Shown here: positions 3,403 to 58,149 of the stretch, in pieces | Numbering within the stretch: position 1 is the first letter of the stretch | How the letters are laid out: every line of letters starts with the position of its first letter | DNA from: Heliopora coerulea | Taxonomy: Eukaryota > Cnidaria > Anthozoa > Scleralcyonacea > Helioporidae | Length of the DNA: 64,000 nucleotides | Direction of reading: 5' to 3' | Assembly: GCA_030142905.1 (NCBI GenBank) | Contig: JASJOG010000112.1 | Coordinates: 970,501 to 1,034,500, forward strand | The notes under the pieces: generated by a model | Database searches by the model: none | Told to the model about the DNA's origin: nothing | Seen by the model: only the letters and a program-made list of their open reading frames with translations | Position numbers and translations under genes: made by a program

Positions 3403-3457
3403 ATGACCAGCATACAATCTTCTAAAATGTCGCAAGCGTCCCTAAGCAAGGATGAAG
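3403..3457 (+). CDS. Candidate first coding exon of the kinase/death-domain gene
   Basis: An ATG with A at -3 opens 18 codons (MTSIQSSKMSQASLSKDE) and one extra base before a strong donor, GAAG|GTAAGC. The exon ends in phase 1, which matches the acceptor of the kinase exon at 11223; joining them makes a GAA codon and keeps the kinase frame open. Three short upstream reading frames precede it (starting at about 3315, 3388 and 3396), which could dampen translation or mean that the true start lies elsewhere. The second in-frame ATG (codon 9) also has a good context. The peptide has no recognisable domain and no signal peptide. The assignment rests on phase and splice-site quality only. The intron to the next exon is about 7.8 kb and contains the BEL/Pao element. 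Confidence 0.45.
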
Positions 3458-4166
3458 GTAAGCTATTTAGTAGTTGGAAAACTATCTGGTCGTTTAGATA
3501 AAGCTCACGTTTTTGGAAATAGCAAATATAGCACGATTAAGCATTTTTCTGAAAATTCTTTACATCCTAGCAAGTTTTGAACGTCATTTTTGTAACCAGC
3601 ATGAAAAAAAATTTTTCTTAAGATATACACTGATGCTTTTCTTAAATTTTGCCTTCAAAAGATTATTTTCTTACATGCCTCTTTGTAGAGTAAAGTTCTC
3701 ACAAATGATAAAGTGGTCATGAGGTGTAATCAACGTACACATTCATCTGTAATCATTTCGCTGTGAGCTGAATTTTAATGAGCTGCTACCGACACTTACT
3801 TTGTAGAGGTCTTATATGTACGTACATGCGTTGATGGCCGACGATGGAACGATGATTACTCATCATCATTCCTGCTGGATTGAATGAATTCAGTTTGTTG
3901 GCTACTTGTGTCATATTTTTGTCTTGATCGACAAAATCGGCAAAATGAGAGAAAATGATTTATCTTTTAACAATCTTTGCATGAAGTAAATGGTTTGTTG
4001 AATCCCGGACATTCGCTATATTCGTCCTCACTTCCACAATATTTAAAATCTTTAATCAGCTCTCGGCGATGTTAACTTACCTATCTTGATGATCACGTCG
4101 AAGATCAAACTTCAGATGATGACGACTTACTATTGACGAAATTAATGCTCCTTTCAAGCTCTGAAG
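3458..4166. other. Intronic sequence, nothing recognised
   Basis: AT-rich sequence without a supported gene. A 69-codon frame at 3513-3722 is low-complexity and resembles no family. This stretch is the start of the proposed first intron. Confidence 0.35.
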
Positions 4167-4417
4167 CCTGGTTCCCATATATCGCTGAGATCATTGCGAT
4201 CGCTCAGAGTAAAAAGATATCCACTGCAATCGCAGAGGTCATATGGAAACCATGAACTCAGCAATCCTGGCGATTACAATAGTAGGGACTGCAATCGAGG
4301 AGATAGAAAACTTTCTATCTTTGCGATCACAATCGTTGGGATCACGAGGAGCATGGTTTCCATATGATCGCTGCGATCACTGAGTCAATTTTTTTGAGTC
4401 ACTATATGGAAGCCAGG
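4167..4417. mobile_element. MITE-like foldback repeat with CCTGG ends
   Basis: The ends are CCTGGTTCCCATAT and, in inverse orientation, ATATGGAAGCCAGG. Inside, variants of TGCGATCGCTCAG, ATATGGAAACCATG and TTTCCATATGATCGC recur in both orientations, so the 251-bp unit can fold on itself. There is no coding capacity. The superfamily is not clear and the target duplication could not be fixed. Confidence 0.6.
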
Positions 4418-4725
4418 GTTAAGGTTCCTTTCATTTCACTTGTTTCGCGTTATCTGTAAAGTTTTTTCCCGAAGCAACCACTTCGCACTTTCTTACACTG
4501 TACACCAACCGGAAGAATTACTTCATCACTGATCAGACATATGTTCAGCCCGACAAACGCACATCGTTCACTTCGAGACTTCAACGCCTCAACACAGAAA
4601 ACGTCTTTCTCTTTTCATTTTCTTACAAAAACGGCAATTTTTAGTCGTAACCATACTAAGGAGGAACAGCCAAAATGACAAAGGAAAGAGAACTCGCAAC
4701 TTTTTTCCCGTCTACCATAAGTTGC

Positions 4726-4920
4726 CATGTCGGAGACTGGGACATAATTAATATAGTATAGCGATGACACGCCTTGATTGACAGATCATGGCTCGCTGAG
4801 ATTGTGTTACCGTTGTTATCGTAGTGTGTGGGAAAGTGAATATATATAAGTGACCGTGATTTAATATACGAATAAAACATCGAAAATAAATCGACGCCGT
4901 ATCCGCAGATGAATCCCTCT
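4726..4920 (+). repeat. 5' LTR of BEL/Pao element
   Basis: Matches the 3' LTR over its whole length. It contains a TATA-like run (ATATATATAAG near 4838-4848) and an AATAAA signal near 4871, consistent with promoter and polyadenylation functions. The terminal bases are CA...CT where the 3' copy reads TG...CA, so the canonical ends have mutated here. Confidence 0.88.
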
Positions 4921-4944
4921 TAGTAAAGGGCAATTTACTAAACG

Positions 4945-4964
4945 TGGCACCTCCGACGGGATCG
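4945..4964 (+). promoter_or_regulatory. Candidate primer-binding site
   Basis: TGGCACCTCCGACGGGATCG begins with TGG, and its reverse complement resembles a tRNA 3' end (T-loop-like CGATCC, then CCA). It lies about 24 bases downstream of the LTR, farther than usual. The matching tRNA was not identified. Confidence 0.4.
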
Positions 4965-4980
4965 AGATACTACAACGAGA

Positions 4981-6228
4981 ATGGAAGCGAAAGCGACGAG
5001 CGCTACACTTGAGACAAAATTAACACAACTGCGGATCACGACGGAACGTACGCACGAGATTTTGGAGAAGGTCGAAGAAGAAGCTATTACTTGCCACCAA
5101 ACGGTTCTTCGGACGATCGTCAACGACGTTGAGAACCTGCGCCTTGCCGTTGAAGCCGAGAAAATCGCCGAGAAAGAGGACCTTACCGAATGGAACGCCG
5201 AGATAAACAAGCTAGCCGACGCAGACAGTCACATCCGAGCGACGAAACAGTGGTTAGAAGACAACCGGAGAAAACAGCAAACGGCTGAGCGTGAGGAGAA
5301 ACTACAATTCGAAATGAAGCTTATGGAGACGAAGCTGAAACTCCAAGCCGAGTACGAAACCGGAAAGAAAGGTGAGAGGTCTTCGCAGTCTAATGAAAAT
5401 ATGATTGGTATGCAGGCGAAATTGCCAAAACTAGTAATTTCGAAATTCAACGGCGAATACTTGGATTGGGCACGATTTTGGGGTCAATTCACTGAGAACA
5501 TTGACAAAACCGCAGTCCCTCCTATCACCAAGTTTGCCTACCTTCGCGAATTGCTCAGTGCCAAGGTGAAACACTCAGTCGAAGCGTTGCCCTTCACACC
5601 GGAAGGATATAACTGCGCCAAAACAATCCTTCAAGAAAGGTATGGCAAACAATCGGAGATAGTGAAAGCCTGCACGCGAGAGATTCTGGACCTACACGTG
5701 ATCTATAATGCCGATCCTAAGAAAATTCACGACTTCAGTGAGAAGCTCATGTATTGCGTGCAAGCCTTAGAAACCCTTAAGAAATTTGATCAGGTCAACG
5801 GGGCGGTATCATTGACCCTTGAGAAGTTGCCAGGAATTCGCGGTGATTTACTCCGAACCGACCCTGACTGGGAAAAGTGGGATTTCGCAAGGCTTGCCGA
5901 AGCGCTCAAGCAATGGACCAGAAGAAACCCGGTCGATGCGAAGAGACAGGAACGAGATCGAAACCATCCAAACAACAGACGGAGAGACAATTTGTTTCAC
6001 GCCTTTCATCACGGAGTAAAACCACGTGGGTGTATTTACTGCGATGACAACGCTCACAAAGCTAATCACTGCTCGAAGGTGACGTCGGTGACAGAACGCA
6101 AACAAATACTAGCCAAGAAACGATTGTGTTTCAATTGCGCATCAGGGAACCACAAAACTTCGGAATGCAAGAGTAAAACGTCCTGTCAGAAGTGTGACAG
6201 CAGACATCACACATCCATCAGTGAATGA
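4981..6228 (+). pseudogene. gag: BEL/Pao gag with three zinc knuckles
   Basis: A 415-codon open frame starts with ATG 60 bases after the LTR. Residues about 1-145 are charged and predicted to form coiled coil. Residues about 148-330 match the DUF1759 gag region of BEL/Pao elements (LPKLVISKFNGEYLDWARF motif at its start). The C-terminus has CCHC-type knuckles beginning at Cys351 and Cys383 and a third Cys/His cluster at Cys402, expected to bind genomic RNA. The frame ends at a TGA at 6226; the sequence after it continues in the same frame with family-like residues to about 6300, so the TGA is probably a disabling stop in a once-continuous gag-pol frame. The product would be a structural particle protein. 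Confidence 0.85.
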
Positions 6229-6302
6229 AAAGAGTCCAGACCTACAGAAACTCCCGAGGACAAAAGGGTGCTGTTGACCACATGTGAGAGAGAAGTGAAG
6301 GA

Positions 6303-7553
6303 GTCTTTCCTGTTGTCGTCGTCGATGTCAATGGTCTTCGAGTTCGCGCACTGATCGACTCAGGAGCCGGAAGCTCGTATGTATCAGCGAAGTTAATTGA
6401 GCTGCTCGAAGTGAAACCAACGAAAATCGAAACGAAAAACATCGACATGCTGATGACGTCAAAGGTAGCGAAACTCGGAGTTTATGACTTGGAATTTCAG
6501 TCAATCGACCACCAATTCACTCTACCCGTGCGAGCGACGAAAGTGAACAAGACGGAGTTGTTGTTCATAAACAACCCGAATTATGACGTACTGATCAAGA
6601 GATACCCGCACCTAAAGGGTGTAACTGTGAACGATGATGAGACCAAAGCGTCGCTTTCTATTCACGCAGTACTCGGAAGTGGAGAATACGCGAAGATAAA
6701 AACCAAAACACAGCCGCGCATCGGAGCCGCGAACGCACCCATTGCCGAGCTAACCAAATTCGGATGGTTTTTGATGTCACATGGGGCAGAGTTCCACAAC
6801 AACGTGATGATGTTGACCCAGACGTCCCAAGCCGATTATGAAGAGCTATGCCGACTGGACGTTCTTGGCCTGCGAGACGCGCCAGAACACGACCAATCAG
6901 TTGTCTTCGACGAATTCAAGGAACATCTGACTCGCTCTAGTAAAAGCTGGTACGAAACCACGTTGCCGTGGAAAGCAAACCACGCGGATCTACCAACGAA
7001 TGAGAAAGGCAGTCTGAAACGCGTCCGAAACCTGAACCGAAACCTGAACCGACGGCTTGAACGAGAAGGTATCGCCGACCAGTATGATGGCATCATACGA
7101 GAGCAGTTAGTCGAGGGAGTCATCGAGGACGCACCCCCCGTTCCACAGTCTAAGGAGTTCTACACCCCGCATAAGTGCGTGATACGGAAGTCGGCGGAGA
7201 CGACAAAGATGCGGATCGTCTACGACGCCTCTGCGCGAGCCACACCTGATTCACCGTCGCTGAACGACTGCCTACATGCGGGGCCAACCCTGCAAAACAT
7301 GTTGTGGGACGTGCTGGTCCGGCAGAAAAGTTACCCGGTTGTGATCTCAGGCGACATCAAGAAAGCGTTTCTACAAATTCGGGTCCGGGAATGCGAAAGA
7401 GATGTTCTGCGATTCCATTGGCGGCCACATGCAGATGCAGAGATCGAAACGTATCGGTTCACTCGGGTGTTGTTCGGTCTTGCCCCGTCACCGTTCTTCC
7501 TAGGGGGGAGTCCTCTAGTGTCACTTAGATACGTGGGCGAAAAAGTATCCTGA
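6303..7553 (+). pseudogene. pol: BEL/Pao protease and N-terminal reverse transcriptase
   Basis: This frame is shifted relative to gag; the change lies near 6300. The retropepsin active site LIDSGAGSSYVS is visible with its catalytic Asp codon at 6357-6359. Reverse transcriptase follows: a HKCVIRKSAETTKMRIVYDAS segment and the first catalytic Asp in SGDIKKAFLQI (codon 7353-7355). After FGLAPSPFF near 7500 the frame leaves the family pattern, and the next matching residues occur in another frame from about 7547, so bases have been lost or altered between these points. The first displayed ATG at 6411 is internal and is not a natural start. Confidence 0.85.
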
Positions 7554-8877
7554 GGAAGCTGAGAGACTGAGGCGGTGTCTCTATGTGGACGGTATCTTGA
7601 CTGGTGGCCAAGACGCCGAACAAGCACAGAATCGCAAGGCAACTGCCACGGAAATCATGAGTGACGCCAAGTTCGAGTTACACAAATGGAACTCGAATCT
7701 ACCGGAGCTAGAAGATCGTTCTCGACCGACGCAGAACGAGGAGCAGTCGTTCGCTAAACAGCAGCTCCAAGTCCTTCCCAACGAATCAAAACTGTTGGGG
7801 GTGAAGTGGGACAAGGCCAGAGACACCATGGCAGTAGAATTCCCAACGACTGCAAGTGCCATAACGAAACGCGAACTGCTGAGGAAGTTAGCGAAAATCT
7901 ATGACCCCCTTGGTTTGGTTTCTCGCACGACGCTTCAGGGCAAACTCATCTATCGCAACGTTTGCGATGAAAAGGTAGCCTGGGATGCCGCCCTTCCAGA
8001 GAGACTTCAACTACAATGGGAGAAGTTTGAGCAGTCACTACCACTGCAGATATCAACGCCAAGGTCGATAGTACCTTATCAGCAACCTGGCCACTCCGTT
8101 CAGCTCCACGCATTCGGAGATGCTTCGATTCATGGTGTTGGCGCTGCGGTGTATTCAGTCGTTCACCAGCAAGACGGGGTCACACAAACCCTGGTTACAG
8201 CCAAATCTCGCCTGGCTAAGAGAGGTCTAACCATTCCCCGACTAGAGTTGGTAGCCGCCCACATGGCGTCTAATCTGGTCATCAACGTGCGCAACACACT
8301 GAGTTATCTACCTCCGCCTACAATTTACGGCTGGTTAGACAGTACCGTGGCCCTCCATTGGATTCTGGGGGACGGACAGTATCGACAGTTCGTGGCCAAC
8401 AGAGTGAAGAAAATGCGGGAGCGTCCTGAAATCCAGTGGAGGTACGTACCAACTGGGCAGAATCCTGCAGACGTGGCGAGCCGAGGTGGGGAAGTAACCA
8501 GTTCAACGCTGTGGTGGAGAGGTCCAGAGTGGCTTCAAAACCCCAAACAATGGCCGGAAAGTCCAGTCACAGAGAAGACTCTTGCCTCCGAAACCGAAGC
8601 AAAAGTCACTAAAGAACGATTAAACGTAGCGAGACAGCAACGCCATGAACCAGAAAACAACGACGGGTTTGAGCACCTCCTTAAACGTCATGACCTTCGT
8701 CGAGAACTGCGCGTCCTTTTCTGGGTACGTCGTTTCACTGTGGACCGAAATCGAAAAGGGCCTCTGACGAGTGAAGATCTCCGTGAGACAAGAAGCTGGT
8801 GGATAAAAAGAGTACAGGCTCTCAAGATTCCCAGAAACCACAGTTCGATCAAACTAGGAGAGCACTCAATCTTGTAG
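7547..8877 (+). pseudogene. pol: BEL/Pao reverse transcriptase C-part and RNase H
   Basis: The segment opens with the palm end of reverse transcriptase. The catalytic YVDD box reads YVDG (codons 7582-7593): the second metal-binding Asp is Gly, which should abolish polymerase activity. The RNase H domain follows from about 8095, with HAFGDAS at its start, LELVAAH in the middle and a late WLDSTVAL segment, ending near YVPTGQNPADVASRG. A frame break near 8815-8830 separates it from integrase; the ORF end at 8877 is an artefact of that shift. Confidence 0.85.
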
Positions 8878-9608
8878 CAAACCAAGAAGGCGTTCTCGAG
8901 TGTCACGGCAGAATCCAGGGGAAGTATCCGGTCTATCTTCCTGCAAATGCCTTGTTTACAAGAAAGCTGGTGCAACAAGTCCACGTCGAAACCCTACACG
9001 GGGGAATTTCATTAACCATGGCGGCGGTCCGTGAAACCTACTGGATTCCAACCCTAAGGAAAGTCGTTAAGTCTGTCCGGTCCGCATGTTGGGGCTGCAA
9101 ACGCTTCCGAGCCATACAAGTAGCCAAACCAAGTCCGAGAAAGTTACCTACAGATCGAACTGAGGGAGGAGCTGCCTTTGAAGTTACTGGTACTGATTTT
9201 GCCGGTCCAATTCGATACAAGCTGTCTCGATCGCGTAAAGGGAAGGCCTATCTAGTCATCTTCTCGTGCAGCCTATCCAGGGCTGTACATCTGGAATTAG
9301 TCCCCAACATGGAAGCGACAACCTTCATACCATGCCTCAAGCGACTCATCGCAAGACGAGGAAGACCCAGAGTTATCTATTCCGATAACGGTTCCTCGTT
9401 GGTCAAAACGGCCAAGTGGTTGGAACAGGTCCGGAAAGACGAACGGGTTCAAGGGTTACTGCAGCAGTTTGACATCGGTTGGAAATTCTACCTAAGTCGT
9501 GCCCCTTGGTGTGGTGGGCAGTACGAGCGACTCATCGGTGTAATTAAGTGCGCATTATTTAAGGTGATCGGGGAGGCACGCTTACCTGGTCCGAACTCAG
9601 CGAAGTAA
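8820..9608 (+). pseudogene. pol: BEL/Pao integrase
   Basis: The H2C2 zinc-binding region (HVETLHGG ... CWGCKRF, about 8970-9110) precedes a DDE core. The three acidic residues are present: Asp in TGTDFAGP (9195-9197), Asp in SDNG (9384-9386) and Glu in GGQYERLIG (9525-9527). The integrase frame breaks near 9600, after which the matching sequence continues in a third frame. The role was insertion of element cDNA. Confidence 0.87.
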
Positions 9609-10170
9609 TACTCGACGTAGAAATCCAGATCAACCGACGCCCCTTAAGCTACATAGAGGACGACATACAGTTGCCCACCTAGACGCCGTCCAGTCTCTTG
9701 TTCCAGCGCACGAACCAGCTGCACGAGGAACAACCATGGCGTGTTGAAGACCGAGATCTTAGAAGGCGCGCGAAGTACTTAATAACTTGCAAGGATTACC
9801 TGTGGAAGAGATGGCAAAAAGAGTACCTAGCGGCACTTAGAGAGTGTCACAACCTCGCTCACAAAGCGAGCAACTTCCAGCCAAGTTCTGGTGATGTGGT
9901 TATAGTGAAAGCTGACAACAAAAACCGTGGAACCTGGCCTCTGGCCATTGTGGACCAAGTCTTTCCGGGAAAAGACGGAGTCGCTCATGCAGTGCAACTG
10001 AAAACTGCTAACGGTATTCTTGAACGTCCGGTGCGATGTTGCTGAGAACGCTGAAGAAACACCACTTAATCCTGACGCTCCGGAGTTTCGCCCAAAATGG
10101 GGTGCAGCTACTGCAGCGAAGCTTCGCATACGACAAATTCAAGACACGGAAGAAGAGGGTTGGTGAGACG
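9609..10170 (+). pseudogene. pol: BEL/Pao integrase C-terminal region
   Basis: After the break near 9600 the sequence reads as an INRRPLSYIEDD segment, has a stop near 9679, then an open stretch to 10045 with the motif LWKRWQKEYLAAL and a GDVVIVKADNKNRGTWPLA segment. This is the DUF5641-type region found after BEL/Pao integrase cores. One further frame change near 10040 is suggested, because the downstream sequence to about 10165 still looks coding. Confidence 0.75.
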
Positions 10171-10314
10171 TGAGAAAGAGATCTCATTCTAGAACGATGA
10201 ACTTTTATTAATTACACTTTAAGCCATTAGGGGACTTTCATTGACTTTAATTGTTCGTTTCTATTTTAATTCAGTCTCGACTAAACATATGCCTCCCTGT
10301 AGGGGAGAGCATAT

Positions 10315-10322
10315 GGGGGGAG
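10315..10322 (+). promoter_or_regulatory. Polypurine tract
   Basis: GGGGGGAG directly abuts the 3' LTR start, where plus-strand priming is expected in LTR retrotransposons. Confidence 0.7.
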
Positions 10323-10517
10323 TGTGTGGGAGACTGGGACATAATTAATATAGTTTAGCGATGACACGCCTTGATTGACAGATCATGGCTCACTGAGATT
10401 GTGTTACCGTTGTTATCGTAATGTGTGGGAGAGTGAATATATGTAAGTGATCATGATTTGATATACAAATAAAACATCGAAAATAAATCGACGCAGTATC
10501 GGCAGTTGAATCCCTCA
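10323..10517 (+). repeat. 3' LTR of BEL/Pao element
   Basis: The copy retains canonical TG...CA ends and is followed by target duplication GTTGC at 10518-10522. It is the same length as the 5' LTR. Confidence 0.9.
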
Positions 10518-10522
10518 GTTGC

Positions 10523-11222
10523 TTTTAGTTCCAAATGTCCAGCTCTTCACTGGGATTTTAAGACACGGGAAACTTCTGAAATTGCAAAATTCAAAGTTTC
10601 AAAATTTAAAACAATAGTGAGTGACGTTTAAGCTCATAACAACTCAGTTAGAAGATGCACATACATGAGTGCTCAAGTCTTATAACAGTATTTAAAATAA
10701 ACTAACATTTTCTGATGGCGAATATAACACATACCACCTCCAAAATCTCAATAATTCGTGAGGAACTCAAAGAAAAGTCACAATCATGTCGTGTCTTTAA
10801 ATGTGATAAACACATGTTGACTTTTCTCCTCAAATTTTTGACCTCAGAAAACAATTTTAAAACATTCTTCGTAAATTAGCATGTCAAAGAGCTCGTCATT
10901 GAAGTTATCTAAAAAACTTGCCGCACATATTTTATCGGATTCGAATCATTCGGCTCCTGCCTCGTGTTTTAAATCCGATAAGACACTACTGCTCGTGTTG
11001 ATAAAATATTACATTCCAAAGTGAATACACCGATAAACGTTCATATCACGAAACATCAGCCCACAGTACGATACGGAATACGCAGAAATGAATCTAGGTT
11101 CGATATAGAAAAAATTTCGTCAATAAGGAGTCAAATTTATTTCTGGGTAGACAATTAAAATTGATGTCTACTACTTCTGAATGTTAATCTGTGCGTATTT
11201 TCCCTTTTTCTCACGTTTCAAG
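10523..11222. other. Intronic sequence before the kinase exon
   Basis: No gene is seen. The last 40 bases form a good splice acceptor: a pyrimidine-rich run followed by TTTCAAG at 11216-11222. Confidence 0.4.
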
Positions 11223-12137
11223 AATTACTTCCCGACGCCACATTGCATTGGATTCCGAAGTCCAGAAACCACCGTGATAAATTCGAGAAACTGATAAACG
11301 CTGAATCCAAGAATTTAGAGGGGATCGGGTCAGCAAAAGTGTATTTCCACAACGACTTAATAATCGCCAACGGATCAGGTGGGACGTGTGTTTATATCGG
11401 ATTATGGGAAGATGGAAGTGAAGTTGCTGTGAAAAGAGTACTTACATCTACTTGTGAAAAGACGGCTATGAACGAAAGTAAATTTGTGAACCTTGCAAAG
11501 TTGACTAATTCAAAGCATTTAGTTCGCTGTCGATATTTTAAAGAAATTGGTTATTTCTATTACTTCGTTCTTGATCTTTTTGAGGAAACGTTGGAAGATT
11601 ACGTCAAAAGCCACACCAAAGAATCTTTAGAAGATAACGGTCCAGTCATCATAAAGGAATTATTAACCGGACTCCAGGCCCTTCATTGTGATGAACCAAA
11701 AATTGTGCATATGGATCTGAAACCACGCAACATCCTGGTTGATATAGAAGGACATATGCACCTAACGGACTTTGGTATAAGCAGAATTCTACCTGAAGGA
11801 GAGTCGACAGTTAATACTGAAACTATTGGAACGAAGGGCTGGAGAGCTGTAGAAACTCTGCCCAAAGAACCTAATTGCAGGGTTAAGCACAAGAGAAGAT
11901 CTGACATTCAAGTTATGGGGATGATCTGTTTTTATATTTTAACAAAAGGAAAACATCCTTTCGGCACCACGTCTGATGAACGTACAAAGAATCTGAAAAA
12001 TGGAAGACCAGTAGACTACGGTGAAATTAGTAACCCTTCTGCCCGTGAACTGATATCCTGGATGCTTCAACGTGACATTAAAAAACGCCCCCACGTAGAC
12101 GAGGCATTAAAGCATCCTTATTTGCAGGAACAATCTG
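11223..12137 (+). CDS. IRE1/RNase L-type protein kinase domain (single large exon)
   Basis: A complete kinase domain lies in one exon of about 305 codons. In order: glycine loop NGSGGT, the lysine in VAVKRV (codon 11432-11434), an alpha-C Glu candidate in NESKF, the catalytic loop HMDLKPRN, DFGIS, then a KGWRAVE element matching the GW-APE region of IRE1, an alpha-F Asp in RRSDIQVMG, and KRPHVDEALKHPYL near the end. All residues needed for phosphotransfer are present, but the HRD arginine is Met. The family is IRE1/RNase L-like by overall pattern; the KEN ribonuclease domain and a membrane segment are absent from this exon. The exon is bounded by a pyrimidine-rich acceptor and a donor CTG|GTAAGC, both phase 1. 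Reading past the donor would add only GKQLH before a stop, an alternative ending by intron retention. Likely role: cytosolic signalling kinase; this is inference. Confidence 0.85.
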
Positions 12138-12825
12138 GTAAGCAATTGCATTAAACCTTGACAAGTATATGTATCTTTTCGTGCATATTATACATCGTGG
12201 CATAATATTGTTATGATCTGTGTTACGGTAACTTGTTATTTAATTTTTTGTGGCATTTAACTTGTAAGATGAGAATTATATTTTGTCTAGAAAATTAATA
12301 TGAGCTTCCTCAGACCTACAATTACCGCCGATCAGAGAAACTATTATGGAAGAAGCCTTAATGCTGGATAGAAAACCCTAAAACTACTTTTGCCCAGAGA
12401 GAGATGGGTGTTGTTTAAGGAGACGATTGCTTTTTAACTTCAAACGTCGCTTTTGTTATTATTTTCGTATTCTTTTTTTAGACAAATGTTTGCTTGGGTG
12501 TCAGTGCAGTGTTGAAATTCAACTGAGTAAAAAATATTAACATAACAGAGCCGACGTAAGCTCTTATGAACTCGAGCGGTCATTGCCAATTACAAACGTT
12601 GTAAAATGTATAAGCGGCGGCGAAACCACCAATGTCAATTGGATGAACTGTGAGCGCGTTGACCCTGAAAATTTTGAATTTTTTTGTGCGCCAAAAGTGA
12701 ATTTTCGTCAATTTCAGCGAGAAAATGTTTAAAATTTATCGGTAAAGCAAAAGTGATAGTTGGACTTTTTTTGAAGGTGGGACTCAACCTGTGGATGGTG
12801 TTTGTAAACCTTTATTTGGTGATCA

Positions 12826-12915
12826 TGCATATTTCTGAAGCGAATGTATATATCGGGAAAAAATCTTTCATGTAAGTTCTTTGGCAATGCTTTCAGATGC
12901 ACATGACATAAATGA
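12826..12915. repeat. Segment repeated at 42895-42985 and 52778-52865
   Basis: The shared core includes GAAGCGAATGTATATATCGGG, AAATCTTTCAT and CATGACATAAA in all three places. The copies at 12826 and 52778 belong to a longer duplicated intron segment; the copy near 42895 stands in the intron between the two death exons. No function is evident. Confidence 0.6.
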
Positions 12916-14577: not shown

Positions 14578-14690
14578 GGATAGGATTAGGGGTTAGGCTT
14601 AGAGTTAGGGTTTGAGTTCGGGTCAGGATTAGGAATTGTATTTGGGTTAAAATAAGGATCACAAGTGTGATTACGGTTAGGAGTGGAGAA
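14578..14690. repeat. Degenerate TTAGGG-like stretch
   Basis: Several near matches to TTAGGG and GGGTTA follow one another, among them TTAGGGGTTAGG, GAGTTAGGG, GGATTAGG and GGTTAGG. It is too diverged to be a working telomere array and could be an interstitial telomeric relic or a chance GT-rich repeat. Confidence 0.5.
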
Positions 14691-15386: not shown

Positions 15387-15560
15387 GAGTCTTGGTAGCT
15401 TAATGGGCAGAGCGTCTTACCGGTGATCAGAAAGTTGCGTGTTCGATCCCTATCTGTGGCTCAGAAATCATTTTTCTGAGGATAGAGCTTGACGAACGTT
15501 CATCTTTCATTTAAGATATCTCCAAGCTTTCACATTTCAAAAACATATCTCTCATCAATA
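15387..15560 (+). repeat. tRNA-derived SINE
   Basis: The head contains an A-box-like TGGTAGCTTAATGGG and a B-box GTTCGATCC (15441-15449), giving a tRNA-like unit of about 75 bases that lacks a proper acceptor stem. The body begins with CTCAGAAATCATTTTTCTGAGGAT, a small hairpin, and continues to about 15560. A second copy is at 53411-53580, and the same body recurs in the foldback at 60249-60813. It is not a functional tRNA gene. Confidence 0.65.
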
Positions 15561-16137: not shown

Positions 16138-16176
16138 GTTTACAGCCTTCAATAACAGACGCAGCATTTATGGCAG
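16138..16176 (+). CDS. Mini-exon 1 (13 codons)
   Basis: Thirty-nine bases lie between a strong acceptor (CTTTTTACTTTTTCTAG) and donor GGCAG|GTATGT. Entering and leaving in phase 1 it reads GLQPSITDAAFMA with no stop. The surrounding 500 bases are homologous to those around the other mini-exons, and the splice sites are conserved although the exon sequence differs. It would add a short flexible linker between the kinase and the death domains. No domain is recognisable in so short a peptide. Confidence 0.55.
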
Positions 16177-21209: not shown

Positions 21210-21267
<58 letters not shown>

Positions 21268-24604: not shown

Positions 24605-24612
24605 GTTCATTG

Positions 24613-27191: not shown

Positions 27192-27239
27192 ATGAACAGA
27201 CTTACAGACCAGAACAATCAGCCATGATGCGTGAGGAAG
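27192..27239 (+). CDS. Mini-exon 2 (16 codons)
   Basis: Forty-eight bases lie between acceptor TTTTTACCTTTTCTAG and donor GGAAG|GTATGT. Phase 1 in and out, reading DEQTYRPEQSAMMREE. Nearly identical to mini-exon 3 in block C (one residue differs), which shows a recent duplication or constraint. It would add an acidic, polar linker after the kinase domain. Confidence 0.6.
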
Positions 27240-27264
27240 GTATGTTACGTTGACTATAATGACC

Positions 27265-27509
27265 AAAATAAAATAAAACATATTCCGAAGAACAATGTCA
27301 TCTTGAAAACTCAAGATATGAGTTAATACAAGATAAAACTATTGATGAAACTGTGATATTTCGACTTTATTTCAAAGTCATCTTCAGACAGAATAATATT
27401 ATCTTGTATTGACTCATATCTTGAGTTTTCAAGATGACATTATTCTTCGGGATATGTTTTATTCTATACTTTTTGAAGTTGTCGGCTGGTCATGGTTTTT
27501 GGTCGAATC
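27265..27509. mobile_element. 245-bp MITE with 10-bp target duplication
   Basis: The flanks are TATAATGACC on both sides (27255-27264, 27510-27519); blocks A and C have the single site. The arms are long inverse repeats around ATCTTGAAAACTCAAGATATGAGT. A related copy is at about 44345-44560. On the minus strand the loop contains CTGAAGATGACTTT ... AAAGTCGAAA, a shape often seen in Penelope-like elements. There is no coding capacity. Confidence 0.75.
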
Positions 27510-33470: not shown

Positions 33471-33966
33471 AAAAAATTGCAGGATAAACAGATAAACGTA
33501 AATTAGTATAGCCTCATGTCCTTATGAACTAACCTTGTCAAAACGACATTAAATTTCAAAGTTAAAGTAAAGATCTTTCCTATCTTCAAATTTGAAATGA
33601 AAAAAGATCAGCGACACCTCAAATCTCATCAATCCGTCATTACCTGAATCGCGAGTATCACGCTTTCGTGATAGCCTTCTGTGACTTGTAGACCTGAATT
33701 GTAGTTGGTCAAATAGTTCCATAAACGTAATGATTTGGCCGTTATCACTGCTGCCACTCTTGTGGAACACAGTCAGCTACACCTTATGTTTTTCTCCTAA
33801 AGCAATAAAACAATACCTTGAAACTATGAAAATCAATATAAATAAAAAACAAAATCAAGGAACAGCATTGAAATGGCGGAAATGTAAGGGATAAATGTCA
33901 TTAAATCGTTATTGTGACCAACACCCCGAATCTCCTAACCATTTTGTTGCTTTTTACCTTTTCTAG

Positions 33967-34014
33967 ATGAACAGACTTACAGACCAGAACAACCAGCCAT
34001 GATGCGTGAGGAAG
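33967..34014 (+). CDS. Mini-exon 3 (16 codons)
   Basis: Bounded by TTTTTACCTTTTCTAG and GGAAG|GTATGT, phase 1 on both sides, reading DEQTYRPEQPAMMREE. It is one residue different from mini-exon 2. Inclusion of both would give a tandem linker repeat. Confidence 0.6.
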
Positions 34015-34558
34015 GTATGTTACGTTGACTATAATGACCAACAAGACTGTTATCGTGTGTTCTGTGTAAAACGTATTCTAAACTGCGACTGTGGTGGTCA
34101 GCCATGGTTTACTAGACAATCTGGGAGTAACAACTCATTTATTGAGACATTTACCGAAGATGGAATGTATAGGAACATTCAGTGGAAGCTACACAGTACT
34201 TTGCCAAATAATAAGCAACGGTGGTATAAGCAAATAAAACGAAATCGGTTGGAGTGGTTGGTGTGGTTGGTATGCTGGTTGATATAATGATAGTTTTATT
34301 GTTAGTAGTTGTTGCCAAAATTAGGACTTTTCTTTCTTGAAAGACAAGCAGTCGTCCATTGATGGTTAACAAAATAATAATGAGCGTATTAAAGTAATAA
34401 ATAAAATCTATTATTACATTAATACAATATTATACTCAACGGTAGTAATATAGAAAGTATCGTTGATCTCTAAAGCAGCCTCTGAAGATCACCAGGCCAC
34501 GGGTTACTTGTGGCTCGTTGGAAACAAAACAAAGGGTGTTGAATCTGTTGCGAACTAC

Positions 34559-34747
34559 CAGTGGCGTAACGAAACTACTAGGGGCCCTTAGGAGATTTTC
34601 GTTCGGGGGCCTCTCCACCCCACTTAGTATAAACATGTATTTCAAAACTTTAACCTCAATTGTCTTTCCAGAGTGATCAGTGGCCAGTTAGAGGTTGGGG
34701 GCTCTTTGGAGTTGCTCTAAACCTGACCATAGTCCGTTACGCCACTG
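34559..34747. mobile_element. hAT-type MITE, block C
   Basis: Ends CAGTGGCGTAACG and CGTTACGCCACTG. The right flank CCAGCAAG equals the left flank preserved in block A (CCAGCAAG before CAGTGACGTAACG), giving the 8-bp target duplication expected for hAT. Confidence 0.75.
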
Positions 34748-34819
34748 CCAGCAAGTGTCCAGTTTTTTTGTACCTGAATTCTTCCTGGGAATCTTATCAT
34801 AATTGGCCATATTACTTTT

Positions 34820-36679
34820 CATCATCATCAAGCTTTATTTCCCCACGGTATCCCATCATTACAAGGCAATGCTCTTCCACAGAGCCGTACAATAACTAAA
34901 ATTTTACAATACGATCATGAATACCCTATTTTATATAAATTACACATATTAACAATACTAATTATTACAACATATTAATTCTATGAGTAAATTTCAAAGA
35001 ATAACCCAAGCAATTAAGTGATAATGGAACAGAAATCTAAAGAGTACTTTTAAACAAAGCAACTGACGGCTTAGTTTTAAATTCATTTGACATGCCACTC
35101 CACAGAACTGCACCTCGATAGCTAAAACTCTTTTTTAGAGCATCATTTTGAGGTCTTTGCATAAAAATGTTCTTTGAGCTTCCTCTCAAGTTATATGAAT
35201 GAATTTGAGAAATGGGTTCAAATGAAGATTTCAGGCCAGTAGGCACAAATTGTTTATAGTCTTGTAAACGCAAAACGGCAGTTGCTTAGTGCGTCTTTGA
35301 TAAAGAGTTTCCCAACCACGGTCATTTAAGATGTCAGAAGATCGATGTTCATAACCTGAATAAGTGATTATTCTATCTGCCCCGTTTTGAAGTTTCTGGA
35401 GTCCGTCAGATAGGCATTTTCCCAAACATCCCCACACTTTACTACAATAGTCAAGATACGGTATAATCAGTGCTTTATATATTCTCAATAAAGATAGGTG
35501 GGGTACAAGGTTACCAACTCGTTTTAATGCCCCAAGAGCTGCAGAAATCTTCTTGAATGTTGTACCAACTTAAGTTTACTAACTTAAGGTTTCATCTACA
35601 TCAATTCTTAAAAATGTATAGGAGTTTACTCTAAGTAGTGGTTGATCTTTGACTTTAATATCAAGATCATGTTGCAATTGATCGAGTCTATGGTTGCTTG
35701 CTTGCTATTATAAGGTACTTCGTCTTTTTGACATGTAAAGTAAGTTTGTTGGCTTCTAGCCACGTCTGGACCATTTTTAAATCGCTATTTAACTAAGTTG
35801 TAAGGTTTCAGGCTCGGAGGCTGTAAAACATGTATCATCTGGATACATCATAACAGAGGATGAGAATGGGTAGGCTTGAAAATCATTAATATAGATTAAA
35901 AGTAATAAGGGCTCAAGCACAGGTAATTGGGGTACTCCACAGATAATTGGAAGGCAACTAGAAAAAGAAACGTTTACGTACCTACACTGTTTACGATCCG
36001 AAAGATATGAGGTAAACCAGAGAAAGGCATGAGCGTCTACTCCATAGAGTTTAAGCTTTTCAAATAAAATCTGATGGTTGACCGTATCAAAAGCTTTCTT
36101 TAGATCCAAACTAGTACAACGTTAAGTAGACCATTATCGATATTTAAATATCAATCATTCGTGGCCTCAAGTAAAGCTGTATGGGTTGAATGCATTGGTC
36201 TAAAAGGATGTTGAGAATCTCCTAGGAGATTATTTTCAATTAAATAAATATAAAGCTGGTGGAAAACAATCTTCTCCAGTATTTTACTAATGATCGGTAG
36301 AACAGATATAGGCCTGTAGTTATTTGGGTCAAACTTAGTATTTTCCTCATACGTTGGAGATACTCGTGCAATTTTAATAGTCATCAGGAAATATAACCCT
36401 ACTAATTGACAGATCTATAATAAAAGTTAACAATGGTGTTTTAATTGGAGCAGCTTCTTTCAATAGTCTGCAAGAAATTCCATCAAGGCCACCTCGTTTA
36501 TTTAGTGGTAATGACAGTCTTAATTTATGAGCAGCGCTGTTATTGGTTTTTTTAATAGAAAAGCTGTGTTGAGTAGGATTGATATATTCTCAAAATGTAG
36601 CATCCTTCGCGGGGATTTCATTTGCTAATGGTGGCCCTATTTGCGTAAAGTGGTGATCTAATACATCACTGATTTCCAG
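34820..36679 (-). pseudogene. CR1-like 3' half, block C
   Basis: Minus strand. The 3' end near 34820-34850 carries an AATAAA-like tail followed by a TGATGATGA run, the short tandem ending typical of CR1/L2 elements. RT core at 35789-36109, C-terminal region at 35037-35488 in two overlapping frames, upstream RT at 36151-36384 (NYRPISVLPIISKILEKIVF). The catalytic box reads MYPDD. Confidence 0.8.
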
Positions 36680-38623
36680 AGGCATACCGTGCGGGGGGTG
36701 TGGGGGCTATTACAACCTTCTACATTTTGGTGAACTGGTCGGTAAAACGCCAGACTGTTGGTAAAGCACGACTTCCGTCGGTAAAGACCGTATGTATAAC
36801 CAGAAATTGGGAAAACCGTGAAACTTAAACCTGTCGTCGGGTAACTTGTTCGTGTTTTGTGATGATTTTAAAAATTCACAGTTCGGAAATTAGACTTTAT
36901 TTAAAATCGAAAGTATTCTAGACATTCGTGGGCTGGAAAAAAAGTTAAATTTAGCCGGCAATTAAGCCATTTGATTGGGTCGAGAGCTGAAACTGGAAAA
37001 CACCAGGAAAATGAGGATAAACGATCTTTCCTTCCAATTTACACATTGGTTAAATGCGCAAAACCGTTATCACATGTCTTATATGTTCTTCGTCACACAT
37101 GCATCTTTCCCACGGATTGTTTAAAGTTCGTAATATCAGTTTCCAAAATTTTTCACGATCTGATAGTCTGATACTGCATTTAAACGGAAAGTCATTCGGC
37201 CAGCAAAATGCCTCCAAAAGAGCGTACAAACCACTACAAGATTCGCTATATTTGTTGTTGTTTAAGAGAAACTCATGACCAGAATATAAATAGAAATTCG
37301 TAAATTGGACATAATGACTGTTTTATGCAAGTAAACATTCAACAACAGTATGAAATGTTTAAACATGTTGTATGCATGATTATGTTCCAAAATGCAATGT
37401 AAGTTTTACAAAATATCTTTATTGCTACTGTAAACTGGTAGTTCGGTTAACATCCAAAATAGAACTTTTTAAAAACGTTCGAAAATGAAAAATTGCCATC
37501 TTTTTTACAAATTTGTAACAGCAGTTTTGTCTTGACCACTGATCATTATGTCCAGTGACCCACCCAAGGTGGGTGGGCTTAATGGGCTTAAGCCCGCCCT
37601 TAGCAGCCACATAAACATCTCTATTTGCGTCAACGAAACAAATAAACTAAAAATGTAACGTAAAATCAAAAGGAAACAGCGTAGGTGGTACGATGCCTCT
37701 AAAAGAGGACAGTGAAATGTTATAATTTCTCTGTCACCTTACTGTTGTGTTGTGTATAAAGACTGTCAAGTCTTAATCAGACAGCGCCACCATCACAATT
37801 GCGTAGGGATTATCCCGATTTTGAATGGAAATCCCAAATCCTGACCGATATCCTGTCGTTATTTGGAAAATGCCGATTTTGACATCTGCTTCAAGGAACA
37901 ACAAGGGTAGGAAGATATTTTCGTCAAATTCTATGGCTAGTAGAGCAATATATTTTTCGGATACCCAGTTAAAAATGTCGCTAGCAGTAGACAAATGGCC
38001 GAAACGAATAGGATATAAACTAGAGTGGTTGGCTTTTAATAAATTAGTAATATCCGGTTCTTCGAACTTCGTCTTGATGATTATATCTCGGTGTGAGGAA
38101 TTACGATACTTTGTCTTTCAGTACTGTAGTATTTTTTAATTAAAAAGCAAGTGCAAAATAACGATAAATTTACCAAGCATTTTTCACAGAAATTATCGTC
38201 TGGGATTGCTAGAAATGGAGTTTCAAGGCATCAAGATTTCAAAATTTTCTTGGAGGAGCAAGCGCCCAGACCCCCCTTGTCAAATATAGATTTGTCTCGG
38301 TCCTTTGATTGGACAGTCTGCTCAATGCCGCAATTAGCCTCGTAAAGACTTTGAAATGTAAAATATTTGTGGAAGAGCATGATGCCAAAGCTTCCAAGTG
38401 GAAGCTGATTTAACGTTTCTAGCCCTTCTTAAAAAAATCGGGGGTGGGCCGTTGAGTATGTCACTTTTTTACGCACTCCTGAATCCTGACCACTTGGAAT
38501 AAACGGATCGATGACCCCTTTGACTCTGGGATTTTAATTTATTTCTGTTGGTAAAATTAGGACTAGACTGTACACTCACCCCACCCCCCACCCCCTCCTC
38601 ACTCAAAATGGGCACGGTACGCC
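36680..38623. mobile_element. GGCGTACC-type insertion, block C
   Basis: Left end GGCATACCGTGCGG, right end GCACGGTACGCC, at the same site in the CR1-like frame as in block A. A 73-codon minus frame (37773-37994) and a 104-codon plus frame (37825-38139) overlap here and neither is recognised. Confidence 0.55.
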
Positions 38624-39860
38624 ACTGCCTATTTCACTTGAGGAAGCATAAGTTACATCCCCAATACTAATATTATCTATCTCTGTGTAATAGGGATTTT
38701 TCCCCATAATCATGTTCACCTTTTTCCAAGAGTCCCTGGTATTACCTACGGTTTCTTTGAAATAATTATTATAATACGCAACCTTTGCACATTTAAAACT
38801 ATCGGTAACTTTGTTTCGAGTAAGTTTATACTTCAGTCAATTATCACTTGTCTTATCATTGGTTGCTGTTTTTTTAAGATTATCTCTCTTAAACATTAAT
38901 TTCTTTAGTTCAGGCGTTAAACAAGGAGAATGGTTTATTCGGATTTTCCTTTTACGGACTGGCGCATGAGCATCTGATATGTTTTGGAAAGTACTTTTCC
39001 AAATTTGCCAGGCACAATTTGGATTACTTTTGTATTGAATAATGTGCCATGGAGCTAAGTTCTTAGCTAAAGGCATCTCCATTAAAATTTCTAAATTTTC
39101 TGCTAATAATAATCCTAGCTCTCCTTTTAGAGATAGAAAATTTTCGAATTGCATATATGAGAGAATGATCGTTTATTCCTAGCTGACAGACTCGAGAATG
39201 AGCGTACATATTGGGATTATTAGTTATAAATAAATCTATTGTAGTTGCAGTATTTTTAGTTACACGAGTAGGTTCAACAATAGTCTGATGATGTTGATAT
39301 AAATTACATATTTCCATTTAACGTTTATTGTGCGGCTCAAGGGATAGAGACAGCAACATCACAATTTAAAATCCCCAATAATGTTTGTTTTAAGACCAAG
39401 TAATTCTAATCTTTCAATAAGAGATTCAAAAGCTGTAATAGTAACTGAGGTGGAACCAGGAGGCCTATAGGAGGTACCAGGAATAAAAGGCTTGTTTTGG
39501 ACCTTGTTACTTTGGTACAAAGCCATTCTAGTTGGTCAACAACAAGCTCACAAATAAACTTATAATTTATGATAGTTCTGATGTAAAGTACCACATCTCC
39601 ACCGTGCCTATTACGATGTTTTCTGTCTAGGGTGTAAGCAGGAATAGAAATTTCCAAGTCAAAATGGTTTCATCTAAGCGAATTTCATTTATCGCAAGAA
39701 TATCGATACTTTTCGTATTCATATAAACGAGTAATCCGTCGCTATGTACAGGCTGACTACTAATATTTATGGCTGCAATTTTAAATCCTCTAGAGTCGGG
39801 AATTTTGTGCGATAATGTTCGGTTCGCAGTTTCATTGATCATAGAAAATTGTTAAAGTTT
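38624..39860 (-). pseudogene. CR1-like 5' half, block C
   Basis: Minus-strand pieces: linker (38650-39154), endonuclease C-terminal part (39063-39317) and endonuclease start (39406-39842, including DILAINEIRLDE). Several frame shifts. Confidence 0.75.
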
Positions 39861-39869
39861 TGTAATTTT

Positions 39870-40422
39870 GTTTGGCCACTTTTTTAACGGGGGAATGCCG
39901 TTCCCCCTGGCCAAAACCAACCATGGGGAAACGCTGTTCCCCCACCGCATAGAGCTTGGCTTTGAATTTTTTTATTATAATTCTGTTCATATTTTATTGT
40001 CGTATCCCCCTCAAAAGATTCCCGACAAAGGACGTACTTTATTGCGTTAAAATTTCAGTGCCCCTCGATCCCTCTTCTTTTTCACGTGATACGCAAGATT
40101 GATCATGGAAAGGAGAACGAGGAACAAGTAGCAAAGCAAAGATTGTGGCAATTACTTTAGTTTAAAATCATACTTATTTTAGGTACTTAATTATGTAAGT
40201 TTTAAGCAAGGTTGTTATTTTTACAAATCAAGAGCTTAGTTTGTTTACTTCTTTGACAAAGAACAATGCCCTTAAAATTTTATTTGAATAGATTGGAATA
40301 AAAATCAATTGTGTTTATGTAGGACACACTTGTTTATTTCTATATTACTATTCATAAAATGACCACACCAATTCGACTTTCATATGCGTTCCCCCACTTC
40401 AATTTTTTGCAAAACAACGCTG
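39870..40422. mobile_element. Truncated copy of the 591-bp hAT MITE
   Basis: The right end is AAACAACGCTG followed by GTTCATTG. The left terminal repeat is missing; the left part joins directly to the CR1-like 5' region. Confidence 0.7.
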
Positions 40423-41593
40423 GTTCATTGCGAGATATGCATTACCTTTCCTATTTAGGTGGCGTTTACTACCATTAAGGCAGGAATCGTGCAGCCTAAA
40501 ATTGAGAAACTATCACCCCATACAGCAATGCTATGATCCATTTCATTAATTTACATAAGCTATCCATGATCATGAAACAAGGTTTTAGCCATTGTGTATC
40601 CTGAGCTGGCCAAAAAATTTAATAATACAGTATTTTAAACCTCTATCCACACTTCAACCCAACAGTGCTGCTCATGAGTAAGGCTATCTTTACTCGCGAG
40701 TAGTAAGAACGCAAGCTTGTTCTGACTCGCTAATTACGAGTGCTAGCATGTCTAGTAAATTTAATTATTATATACGTACTGTGATATACTCCTTAGTAAG
40801 CGCAAAGATAAAAGTCGTCTCTTACAGGTGAAGTTCTATCGCGATTGGTCAGACGATTTTTCTTTCTGGTGAATACAATCTTCTGACCAATCAGAGGCCC
40901 CTGGCAAATGTTCGCCACTAATGAGAAAAGGGTATCGTTTTTTTCCCGCCGCAGCTCAAGCAAACCTTAACAGCTCGAACTTTTTGTTTGCTCTCAGATA
41001 TCATCTTTATTACGTTGTGTTCATACTTATCTTGCTGTTAAACATGTGAACTTTTGCGAGTATCGTTAAAAACAAATACATTTTCTAACTTTTATGTTGT
41101 CTTTATACGACTTCGTCGACTTGTCGTGGAGGGGAATTCTAAAGAGCGTTTGTTCCTTCACTTGTCATAAAAGAAATTTTAATCACAGTAGGCATGTAAT
41201 AAACAAATGACCTCATGGTTGGCTCGCTTGTCCGATTTTTATTCACGTGTGAATAAAACTCGTACTCGCTCACCAACCATGAAGTAATCTATATATATTT
41301 GCAGTGCTCGCGTATTCATACATCCCGAGTATTATAAGAGTGAAAAGATTTGAGGTATGGGTGTCGGAAAACGTTGCCCCTGCGAATTAGTAATTACACA
41401 GTTGTAGCCTAATGTATGTTTTAATACTCTTACTCACAATCAATTTCGGTACACTTCGGTGTATCATTATTTGAAAATTGAAGTACTATCTTATGTTCCT
41501 TATCTTTAATTAAGCTGTTGGTACTAAATCAATTTTCCACGTGTTAATGTTATTTGAAACTTTATTTTTTTCCACGTATAACACGATAAACAA

Positions 41594-42030
41594 TATGTTC
41601 AAACTATCAAACAACAAAAATTACAACCTAAGAAATAACAACCTTACGCTGACTCTGTCACAACCAAAAACAAATGCAATGAAAAGAGCTTTTAGTTATG
41701 AAGGTGCCAAAGTCTGGAATAACCAACCAGCTGAGTAGAAAAGTGCAGTTTTAAATAATAGATTAAATAATAGTATTTTTAATAATTTTAAAAAGTAATA
41801 TCTTAGTTATTTTATAATGCGTGCAAATTCATATTGCAACTGTAAATAGTTTTACTAGTATTCAATATGTGGGTTTCTGATCTACAATTTTATGGATTTT
41901 TAACTTTTTATAACAGTTACACATGGCCTTGTGAGAAACAACCATTGTTAGTTTATTACATTCTTATATATTGAGGTTGAAAAATCTACCGTTTTAAAAG
42001 GTGATTAAATAAAATAAATAAAAGATGATT
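41594..42030 (+). pseudogene. 3' end of a non-LTR retrotransposon
   Basis: About 50 codons read NYNLRNNNLTLTLSQP ... KRAFSYEGAKVWNNQPAE and then stop. This is the conserved C-terminus of CR1/L2-type ORF2 proteins, followed by an AT-rich 3' tail ending in AAATAAAATAAATAAAAG. The orientation is opposite to the block elements. Confidence 0.65.
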
Positions 42031-42408
42031 AAATATTGGTAGCACTTACGTTCAAAACTAACGGATAATCTATAAGATGATTGATCAGCATTTCGAAATG
42101 TTTTTCCAGAAGCCTCTGTTAACTGATTTCTTCTGTAGACCCAGGATAAAAGTTTTTTTCCTGTTATTAATTGTTAGCAAAGTTAGAAGTTCAATAAGCA
42201 TAAAAAGTGATTAATTGACTTGTTGTGATAAACTTGAACATAACGGTTTCCGAATATAAGTTATTTGCATCAGGTTACCAAGGAAGATAATTCCATATCT
42301 TGTATATTAATGAACAGAGTCATAATTCCAGCACGTTGTTGTCCAACATTTTTACTTTTTTATATATACTTATCGTTACTCTTCTAAGCACTTCTTATCT
42401 CAATTCAG

Positions 42409-42693
42409 ACGCCAGTTCGAAGTCAGAAAAGATTGGCGCACTTAATGCGGAATCTTATCAGGAGATTTGTCGGATATTGAATCAGGATCTTCCAGGGAAG
42501 GACTGGAAAACTATGGCCGGGAAAATGGGATACAACATTCACGAGATGAAGTCATTTTCCGTGAATGACAACCCTGCAGGTGTTGCGCTTGAAGACTGGG
42601 GAACAGTCGATGGAAATGATTTACATGAATTGATCAAAATTCTCACAGACATGGAGAGAGATGACGTGGTAGAAATTGTAAGAGATGCCGGTT
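42409..42693 (+). CDS. Death-domain exon 1
   Basis: A 95-codon exon lies between acceptor TATCTCAATTCAG and donor GGTT|GTAAGT, phase 1 on both sides. It encodes a six-helix death-fold domain similar to the MyD88/IRAK/UNC5-type: LNQDLPGKDWKTMAGKMGY, then VNDNPAGVALEDWG and LIKILTDMERDDVVEIV, which fit helices 2-3, 4 and 5-6. Such domains mediate homotypic assembly of receptor-proximal signalling complexes. A second copy is at 63347-63633. Reading upstream of the acceptor gives a hydrophobic stretch that looks like a signal peptide, but it lies in the intron by this model. Confidence 0.75.
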
Positions 42694-43752
42694 GTAAGTA
42701 CATTATCCATTAACTAACTCTGGGTAAAAGCCATCACGTTTTGCACTTAATTTGAAAACTTTACTTACCTAGGACCCCCGGGTTCTAAATCGCACGGGAA
42801 ATACAGTTTCCTCGGAAGATACTTACCTGACGGGAAGATGTAGTTGTCAGAGCTTCTTTGTAGACTGATATGAGCAATACTGTTCCCCATCCATTCGCAC
42901 ATTTATGAAGCGAATGTATATATCGGGTAGAAATCTTTCATCCAATCTCTTTTGTAATGTTTTTGGATGTACATGACATAAAAAATTCTAGATTCAATGG
43001 GAGTATCATTACGAGGTCGAGTGTCCACCCTCTTCGTAGACTGGGTCGACCTTGCACTCGCTCTTGTAAGTTGCAATAGTTGGTAAATCTGAAGGAAGTG
43101 TGCATGCGACCACAAGCAAAACAAACACGTATGGTGAATAATAGGAGTTACTTCGGCGTGTTGCGATTGTTTTCGAAGATTTCAGACTCGAACCTGAATT
43201 CAATCAAGAAAGCGGGGAGAAAGCGCATAGGCAAAAGAATTTTCAACCTAGTTTTTGCTGTCTTCAAACACGAGCAAATATCTTTGTCAGAAAACATGTT
43301 ACAGAATGTTCGCAGTTGTCGACTGGGCTTTAGAAGTCTTTCTCTCCTGCTTTTCTTCTTATGTAAAAGGAAACAGAACTGACTATTTAACACTAGCGGA
43401 AAGTTGTTTTCGTCACACATTTTCTCTCCCAGTGCTCATATTTCTCGTGGGTTAATGTATTGACCTCATGAAGTCAATTTCATTCTTTTTCAGTTATTTA
43501 ACTTCAGCTTACCGACATCTGTAGGGCGCACTTCTTGCGTATGAGAACATTTTCTTCTTTTCTACCTTTCCTTGCACTCTCAGAAAGTACGTCAACGGAT
43601 CCCTTTCTGCCTTGGCATTGAACTGTATTTTTGTGCTTATAGGGTAGTTTTGATCGTTTTCAAAACTCACAGCCAAAACAGAAAACAAATTTTAAATCGC
43701 CTTCACTGTAAAACTGGCTATCGTTAAATTCTATTAATATCCCTTTTTATAG
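42694..43752. other. Intron between the two death exons
   Basis: Holds the short repeat at 42895-42985. The minus-strand frame 43009-43203 contains a hydrophobic run (YVFVLLVVACTLPSDLP) resembling a signal peptide but has no further support. Nothing else is recognised. Confidence 0.4.
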
Positions 43753-44040
43753 TAGAAGCACCACCGTACCGTTTACGAATGGAGGAGATTGTTGAAATAT
43801 CGAGAGGAATTCAAAGGGTATGGAGGGAAGTAGCCTACCTGACAACACTATTTGAAACGCACGAAATTGAAGACCTAAGTAATTCAAAAGTTAATGAAGG
43901 CAGAATGGGCAAGGCTCATACGATGCTTACACGTTACATGGAGCGTGGAGGGACGAGACAAAGGCTAGCTGGAGCGCTTGAGAAGCTTCGGTTAAACTCT
44001 CTATCTCAGGAAGTCCGATCTGGATATTTTATCAATACTG
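43753..44040 (+). CDS. Death-domain exon 2
   Basis: A 96-codon exon between acceptor CCCTTTTTATAG and donor ATACTG|GTGAGG, phase 1 on both sides. The reading VWREVAYLTTLFETHEIEDL ... AHTMLTRYMERGG ... LAGALEKLRLNSLSQEV matches the classical death-domain pattern (tryptophan in helix 2, then a helix 5 ML--Y/W and ALEKL-L near helix 6). It differs from exon 1, so the protein would have two unlike death folds. If the donor is not used, reading continues as GEEE and stops at 44054, with AATAAA at 44205-44210: a plausible alternative last exon. Confidence 0.75.
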
Positions 44041-58146: not shown

Positions 58147-58149
58147 ATC

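Follow-up and report, generated by a model that had tools for sequence, protein, structure and literature searches.

The 64,000-nucleotide (nt) window analyzed here, part of a contig that we call C16 in the 430-Mb genome assembly of Heliopora coerulea, raises the question of whether a kinase exon and the death-fold exons far downstream of it belong to one gene, and what kind of protein such a gene would encode. We consider it probable that the locus is a member of a young tandem family with the layout E1 (first coding exon), kinase, (mini-exons), (Death exon D1) and a terminal Death exon, D2 or DT, joined in phase 1. The best reading of this locus is a convergent, young RIPK1-like kinase family made by tandem duplication.

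Exon anatomy and translation start

In-silico splicing of E1, the kinase exon, three mini-exons, D1 and D2 (3403-44054) yielded a single open frame of 563 residues, with all joints in phase 1 and all introns bounded by GT and AG. These exons lie on the + strand. E1 (3403-3457, 55 nt), which paralog comparison supports, ends in phase 1 at the donor GATGAAG/GTAAGC. It is followed by the kinase exon (11223-12137, 915 nt), the mini-exons m1 (16138-16176, 39 nt), m2 (27192-27239, 48 nt) and m3 (33967-34014, 48 nt), and D1 (42409-42693, 285 nt), all with phase 1 at both ends, and by the terminal Death-like exon D2 (43753-44054; stop at 44052-44054, AATAAA at 44205). The kinase and D1 matched their Pfam profiles at 124 and 51 bits, respectively, and D2 scored 21.4 to 21.8 bits against Pfam Death, just below the cutoff of 22.6. 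A preliminary description of this DNA had placed the same exons, proposed that they could be joined in phase 1 and suggested profile searches for kinase and Death domains; the composite frame and the profile scores bear it out. It had missed two elements, namely, a fourth mini-exon, m4 (54041-54076, + strand, 36 nt, phase 1 at both ends), and a second copy of D1 (63347-63631, + strand, 41.5 bits). A terminal Death exon of another type, DT, with its own stop, lies at C16:1057173 (window-equivalent 86,673), 22.7 kb past the window end. Its claim that all exons are in phase 1 holds for those it listed but not necessarily for the second D1 copy, which shares about 71 to 72% protein identity and 85% DNA identity with D1: this copy is in phase 1 only if a GTGTAAG donor is used, and the GTAAGT donor makes it 287 nt long and breaks the rule.

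Downstream of the window kinase the order is D1, D2 (stop), m4, D1 copy, DT (stop), and next kinase, and the D1 copy may precede DT outside the window. Because the stop-bearing DT lies at C16:1057173, the unit may extend beyond 44054. DT exons were classed by frame length and identity (103 to 104 residues), and the two DT sequences that were read both have a stop. For the alternative splicing also proposed in the preliminary description, the exons are compatible in frame and two stop-bearing tails are present; we infer that D2 and DT are alternative tails of one gene. Exon order and phase fit a putative C-terminal Death domain in the kinase polypeptide.

To look for E1 elsewhere, we covered the 2.1 kb before each of 16 other kinases and the region of the upstream neighbor. 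Thirteen of the 16 gave a BLAST match resembling the first exon, which at one of them, the pseudogene L060, was only partial; none was seen at L057, L062, and L063. An intact short E1 frame with DE at its end and a donor in phase 1 was present at 14 of 18 kinases (12 of the 16, the neighbor and the window), the frames of L061 and L067 having been read by eye. The 13 sister frames read were of four kinds: seven MGN(T/K/I)xTKNQDE, four M(S/L)QPSL(S/T)KDE, one MGNKIRKNRDE, and one MDDKMKNNQDE. The window E1 is of the second kind and reads MSQASLSKDE from the ATG at 3427. This ATG was found in all four same-type paralogs read, and that at 3403 in none, so that translation more likely starts at 3427 than at 3403; the first exon itself lies where the preliminary description placed it. 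E1 of the window type starts with MSQ or MTS. The start shared by 7 of the 13 sisters (L058 to L072 and C16:923.4k) resembles an N-myristoylation signal, and some copies may reside at membranes; the window copy has no such start. Before the kinase, E1 codes for only 10 to 18 residues, and neither a lumenal sensor nor a membrane span nor ankyrin repeats were seen there.

The kinase family and its mini-exons

The 16 best matches of the kinase among solved structures were all IRE1 (E values of 1.5e-27 to 3.3e-25), more than 20 bits above the next match, and no RIPK was present among the best 60 of 2025 such matches. Profile searches found no KEN ribonuclease in the kinase frame or in 10 further + strand frames of the window; in the positive control L027, a more distant paralog in the same genome, they detected both the kinase and KEN (69 bits). 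These results support the earlier proposal of an IRE1/RNase L-type kinase devoid of KEN.

The kinase exon has 17 close paralogs of 75 to 89% identity. Of the resulting 18 copies, C16 carries 15, every one in + orientation, and C521, C621, and C282 carry a single copy apiece. They form one clade (support 100/99), which groups with IRE1/RNase L-type relatives in a tree whose rows were chosen from such hits. VAVK and DFG are present in all 18 copies and the catalytic loop HMD in 16 (LMD in L023, HMN in L025); 17 frames are open, and the donor GTAAG(C/T) is kept in 16. L017 and L018 are identical and may represent a very recent or artefactual tandem copy, and the nearly identical L014 and L016 may be haplotype duplicates.

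We considered the non-RD loop as a mark of death-tailed copies. Of 106 matched loops in database proteins, 4 read HMD and 94 HRD; since HMD is also found in P0012, a relative with a KEN annotation, the non-RD loop is weak evidence, and this candidate mark was weakened. None of the best 120 of 562 kinase matches in the protein collection carries PF00531, as read. Those with a name come from octocorals and fishes; neither stony corals nor sea anemones are represented among them, and the absence of the architecture elsewhere therefore cannot be judged from these 120.

The mini-exons lie in a tandemly duplicated unit (15161-60014) rich in long interspersed nuclear elements (LINEs), several partial copies of which are mostly 80 to 91% identical. 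As m2 and m3 are nearly identical in both exon and flank, the window holds three independent mini-exons. The repetitive setting raises the possibility that they are chance AG...GT stretches in a duplicated repeat rather than exons, and BLAST detected no mini-exon sequence within 50 kb upstream or 26 kb downstream of the window. However, all four have lengths divisible by three, are open in phase 1, and have canonical splice sites, and their lengths differ by 3, 9, and 12 nt. Moreover, they diverge faster than the flanking introns, as a selected linker would: identity among m1, m3, and m4 is 0.56 to 0.67, compared with 0.82 to 0.90 in the nearest 110 intron bases (Fisher P values of 6.5e-6, 0.0013, and 0.0005). 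The m1-m4 pair was tested on these nearer 110 bases because identity in its 150-base upstream flank is just 0.69; this value counts against faster change of the mini-exons, as does an identity of 0.73 in the 30-base downstream flank of m1 and m2. On balance, we regard the chance origin of the mini-exons as doubtful.

Two related palindromic repeats of about 200 bp are present at 27268-27498 and 44350-44565, the first about 30 bases past the m2 donor. A broken non-LTR (long terminal repeat) retroelement at 55643-58642 has an endonuclease match, and reverse-transcriptase-like frames were seen in it by eye.

Association of the kinase and Death exons

The best solved relatives of D1 were the death domains of NRADD and p75NTR, followed by that of MyD88 (E value of 3e-5). 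In the D2 family, all 10 aligned members, including the window copy, matched Death at an E value of 0.1 or lower (best, 3.3e-6). The 10-member profile was nearest to the death domains of TRADD (E value of 0.0018) and RIPK1 (E values of 0.003 to 0.05), with non-Death chains appearing from an E value of 0.04. A single-sequence structure model of D2 was poor, with a predicted local distance difference test score of 55. The death-fold part had no homolog at an E value of 0.01 or lower among 1119 candidates from the protein collection, and the D2 profile search gave 49 matches, all to unnamed 'ena' frames. Three genome-wide Death-domain searches, from 240 to 503 candidates, each gave at least 150 scored matches; the D1-type and D2-type lists used in the following analyses each consist of the best 150.

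We merged the kinase, D1-type, and D2-type places on C16 to analyze their order. The merged set has 48 elements, each of them on the + strand. A listed Death exon is found in 11 of the 14 kinase-kinase intervals, and 7 of the 14 end in DT, which directly precedes the next kinase in eight of nine cases (permutation P value of 0.000115). In the neighbor gene, too, E1 is followed by kinase, Death, and terminal Death exons. For strand agreement across the genome, we compared the same Death lists with 77 of 116 kinase matches, after dropping an adjoining fragment and all matches weaker than about 1e-30. Kinase and D2 agreed on 13 of 15 contigs (51 of 53 elements), and kinase and D1 on 12 of 13 (45 of 46 elements). 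The preliminary description had treated the kinase and the death folds as one gene. By comparison of E1, the kinase donor, the acceptors, the strand and the repeated order, this view gains support; we infer the splicing itself, i.e., transcripts in which the kinase exon is joined to Death exons.

Several observations weigh against a single gene or a working family. The intron between kinase and Death exons is long and would span 30 kb here were the mini-exons skipped. All 18 copies, as read, have an in-frame stop within five codons of the kinase donor, which makes a kinase-only product possible; in the window, read-through would add GKQLH before the stop at 12152-12154, which an ATTAAA overlaps. 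Three of the 14 C16 kinase intervals lack a listed Death exon. D2 relatives are also present on contigs without a listed kinase, such as C165, and D2 can therefore belong to other genes. Strand agreement has exceptions (C212 and C201 for D2; C159, mixed, for D1), and co-orientation is typical of any tandem array: multicopy contigs were single-stranded in 32 of 33 cases for D2 alone and in 28 of 30 for D1. Since tandem arrays are single-stranded anyway, the agreement supports association, not splicing. In the window kinase, and in no other of the 18 copies, the first Gly of the ATP loop is replaced (ANGSGG), and L013 is a pseudogene with an in-frame stop and a broken donor. The kinase dN/dS (ratio of nonsynonymous to synonymous rates) has a median of 0.66 (range, 0.41 to 1.20), just mildly below 1. 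This comparison excluded L013 and the outgroups L027 and L028; of the 136 pairs formed by the remaining 17 copies, it used the 134 whose dS exceeded 0.02.

These stops, the empty intervals, and the hundreds of D1 and D2 relatives in other places, many of them on contigs for which no kinase is listed, speak for an alternative in which kinase-only genes and separate death-adaptor genes are two interleaved families co-duplicated on one strand; such neighbors would be expected to share strand order too. Nevertheless, conservation immediately past the kinase donor does not exceed that in the remainder of the flanking intron, no special constraint on the read-through tail was found, and the donor is kept in nearly all copies. 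The position of DT directly before the next kinase and the co-orientation of kinase and Death exons across many separate contigs argue in the same direction, and the Death exons were not noticed to have first exons of their own, although no search for such exons was made. We therefore consider two families unlikely and favor the phase-1-joined single-gene layout. That the array is largely decaying, with only a few working genes and most copies either pseudogenes or assembly duplicates of these, is more improbable still: L013, the altered loops of L023, L025, and the window copy, and the pairs L017/L018 and L014/L016 speak for it, but the kinase frames and motifs are almost all intact and the median dN/dS is below 1.

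Within 10 kb around D2 on C165, retroelement-like and unrecognized frames were seen by eye, and no kinase or further Death exon was noticed there.

The preliminary description had also suggested remodeling of domain content by duplication, which is strongly supported by the 18 young paralogs and by the duplicated mini-exon unit and Death exon. Duplication through unequal exchange between transposons, which has been proposed for gene arrays of corals (PMC12314368), fits the pattern; PMC10236652 likewise describes tandem duplication of innate-immune families in corals.

We also compared substitutions in the Death exons. For D1, dN/dS was 0.3 to 1.4 in 27 of 28 pairs, with an outlier of 6.8 at a dS of 0.017. 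Between the window D2 and L037, 39 of 117 nonsynonymous but only about 5 of 36 synonymous sites differ in the first half (P value of 0.034), with zero differences in the second half. The comparison with L039 went in the same direction but was not significant (P value of 0.16), and in that of L039 with L040 nonsynonymous and synonymous change was about even. These few sequence comparisons suggest fast change in half of D2. Among the D2 relatives L034 to L043, some copies have a strongly diverged first half and an identical second half, which gene conversion may explain, or else diversifying selection acting on one half of a death fold.

Predicted function and relation to known systems

The kinase of this locus shares its type with IRE1 and RNase L, and the KEN-bearing relative L027 is encoded in the same genome. 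It differs from them in its predicted Death-fold tail, with no KEN in the frames tested, in its HMD catalytic loop, and in the lack of a lumenal sensor, membrane span, or ankyrin repeats, although an undetected exon further upstream is possible. With RIPK1 the locus shares the predicted order of a kinase followed by a C-terminal Death fold, the affinity of the D2 profile, and a catalytic loop without the RD arginine, which RIPK1 also lacks. Unlike RIPK1, it has an IRE1-like rather than RIPK-like kinase, two Death folds, and no RHIM tetrad ([IV]Q[IVLC]G) in the 563-residue composite protein. IRAK and Pelle also combine a kinase with a Death fold, and D1 resembles the death domain of MyD88. In IRAK, the Death domain is N-terminal to the kinase, whereas here the Death exons are downstream of it and E1, at just 55 nt, encodes no N-terminal Death domain. 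Homologs of RIPK1 (kinase, RHIM, Death) are reported not to have been found in cnidarians (PMC12119088), and the titles and abstract openings returned by literature searches name no gene combining an IRE1-like kinase with Death. The ROCO genes of brown algae are similar in having in-phase duplicated exons in candidate immune genes, with diversifying selection and a choice of exons by splicing (PMC11378527); there, the units are LRR (leucine-rich) repeats in phase 2, whereas here they are whole signaling domains and linkers in phase 1.

By analogy with IRE1 and RIPK1, the protein would most likely work by recruitment and trans-activation. An IRE1-type kinase would have lost its KEN nuclease and be spliced instead to C-terminal death folds. 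Through its death-fold tail the protein would join an upstream oligomer resembling MyD88, TRADD, or a TNF receptor; this oligomer would cluster the kinases and let them trans-activate by proximity, and the activated kinase would then signal to an immune or cell-death output. The Death tails would be interchangeable and perhaps alternatively spliced. More tentatively, it is possible that one cnidarian lineage arrived on its own at immune kinases resembling RIPK1, with death folds taking the place of the nuclease behind an IRE1 kinase, in a modular, fast-evolving array whose alternative, diversifying tails and hypervariable linkers would change input specificity through exon duplication and choice. 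If true, the combination of an IRE1-derived kinase with death folds of the TRADD/RIPK1-like and MyD88-like kinds would represent a convergent solution. The family offers about 18 natural variants for comparison, and since its joints are all in phase 1, long-read RNA could test exon choice and exon shuffling directly.

No tRNA genes were found in the window. Intron 1 contains an LTR retroelement on the + strand (4728-10516; LTRs at 4728-4919 and 10325-10516, 93% identical) with a DUF1759 match, from which we take it to be of the BEL/Pao type. Minus this element, intron 1 measures about 2 kb, close to intron 1 of the neighbor gene (about 1.6 kb). Just upstream of the gene, a frame-broken transposase-like remnant (245-1888), presumably of the hAT type, contains a DUF4371 match at 245-841. 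A minisatellite at 51737-51847 consists of 6.5 copies of a 17-base unit, with two-copy stretches also at 50876 and 51657.

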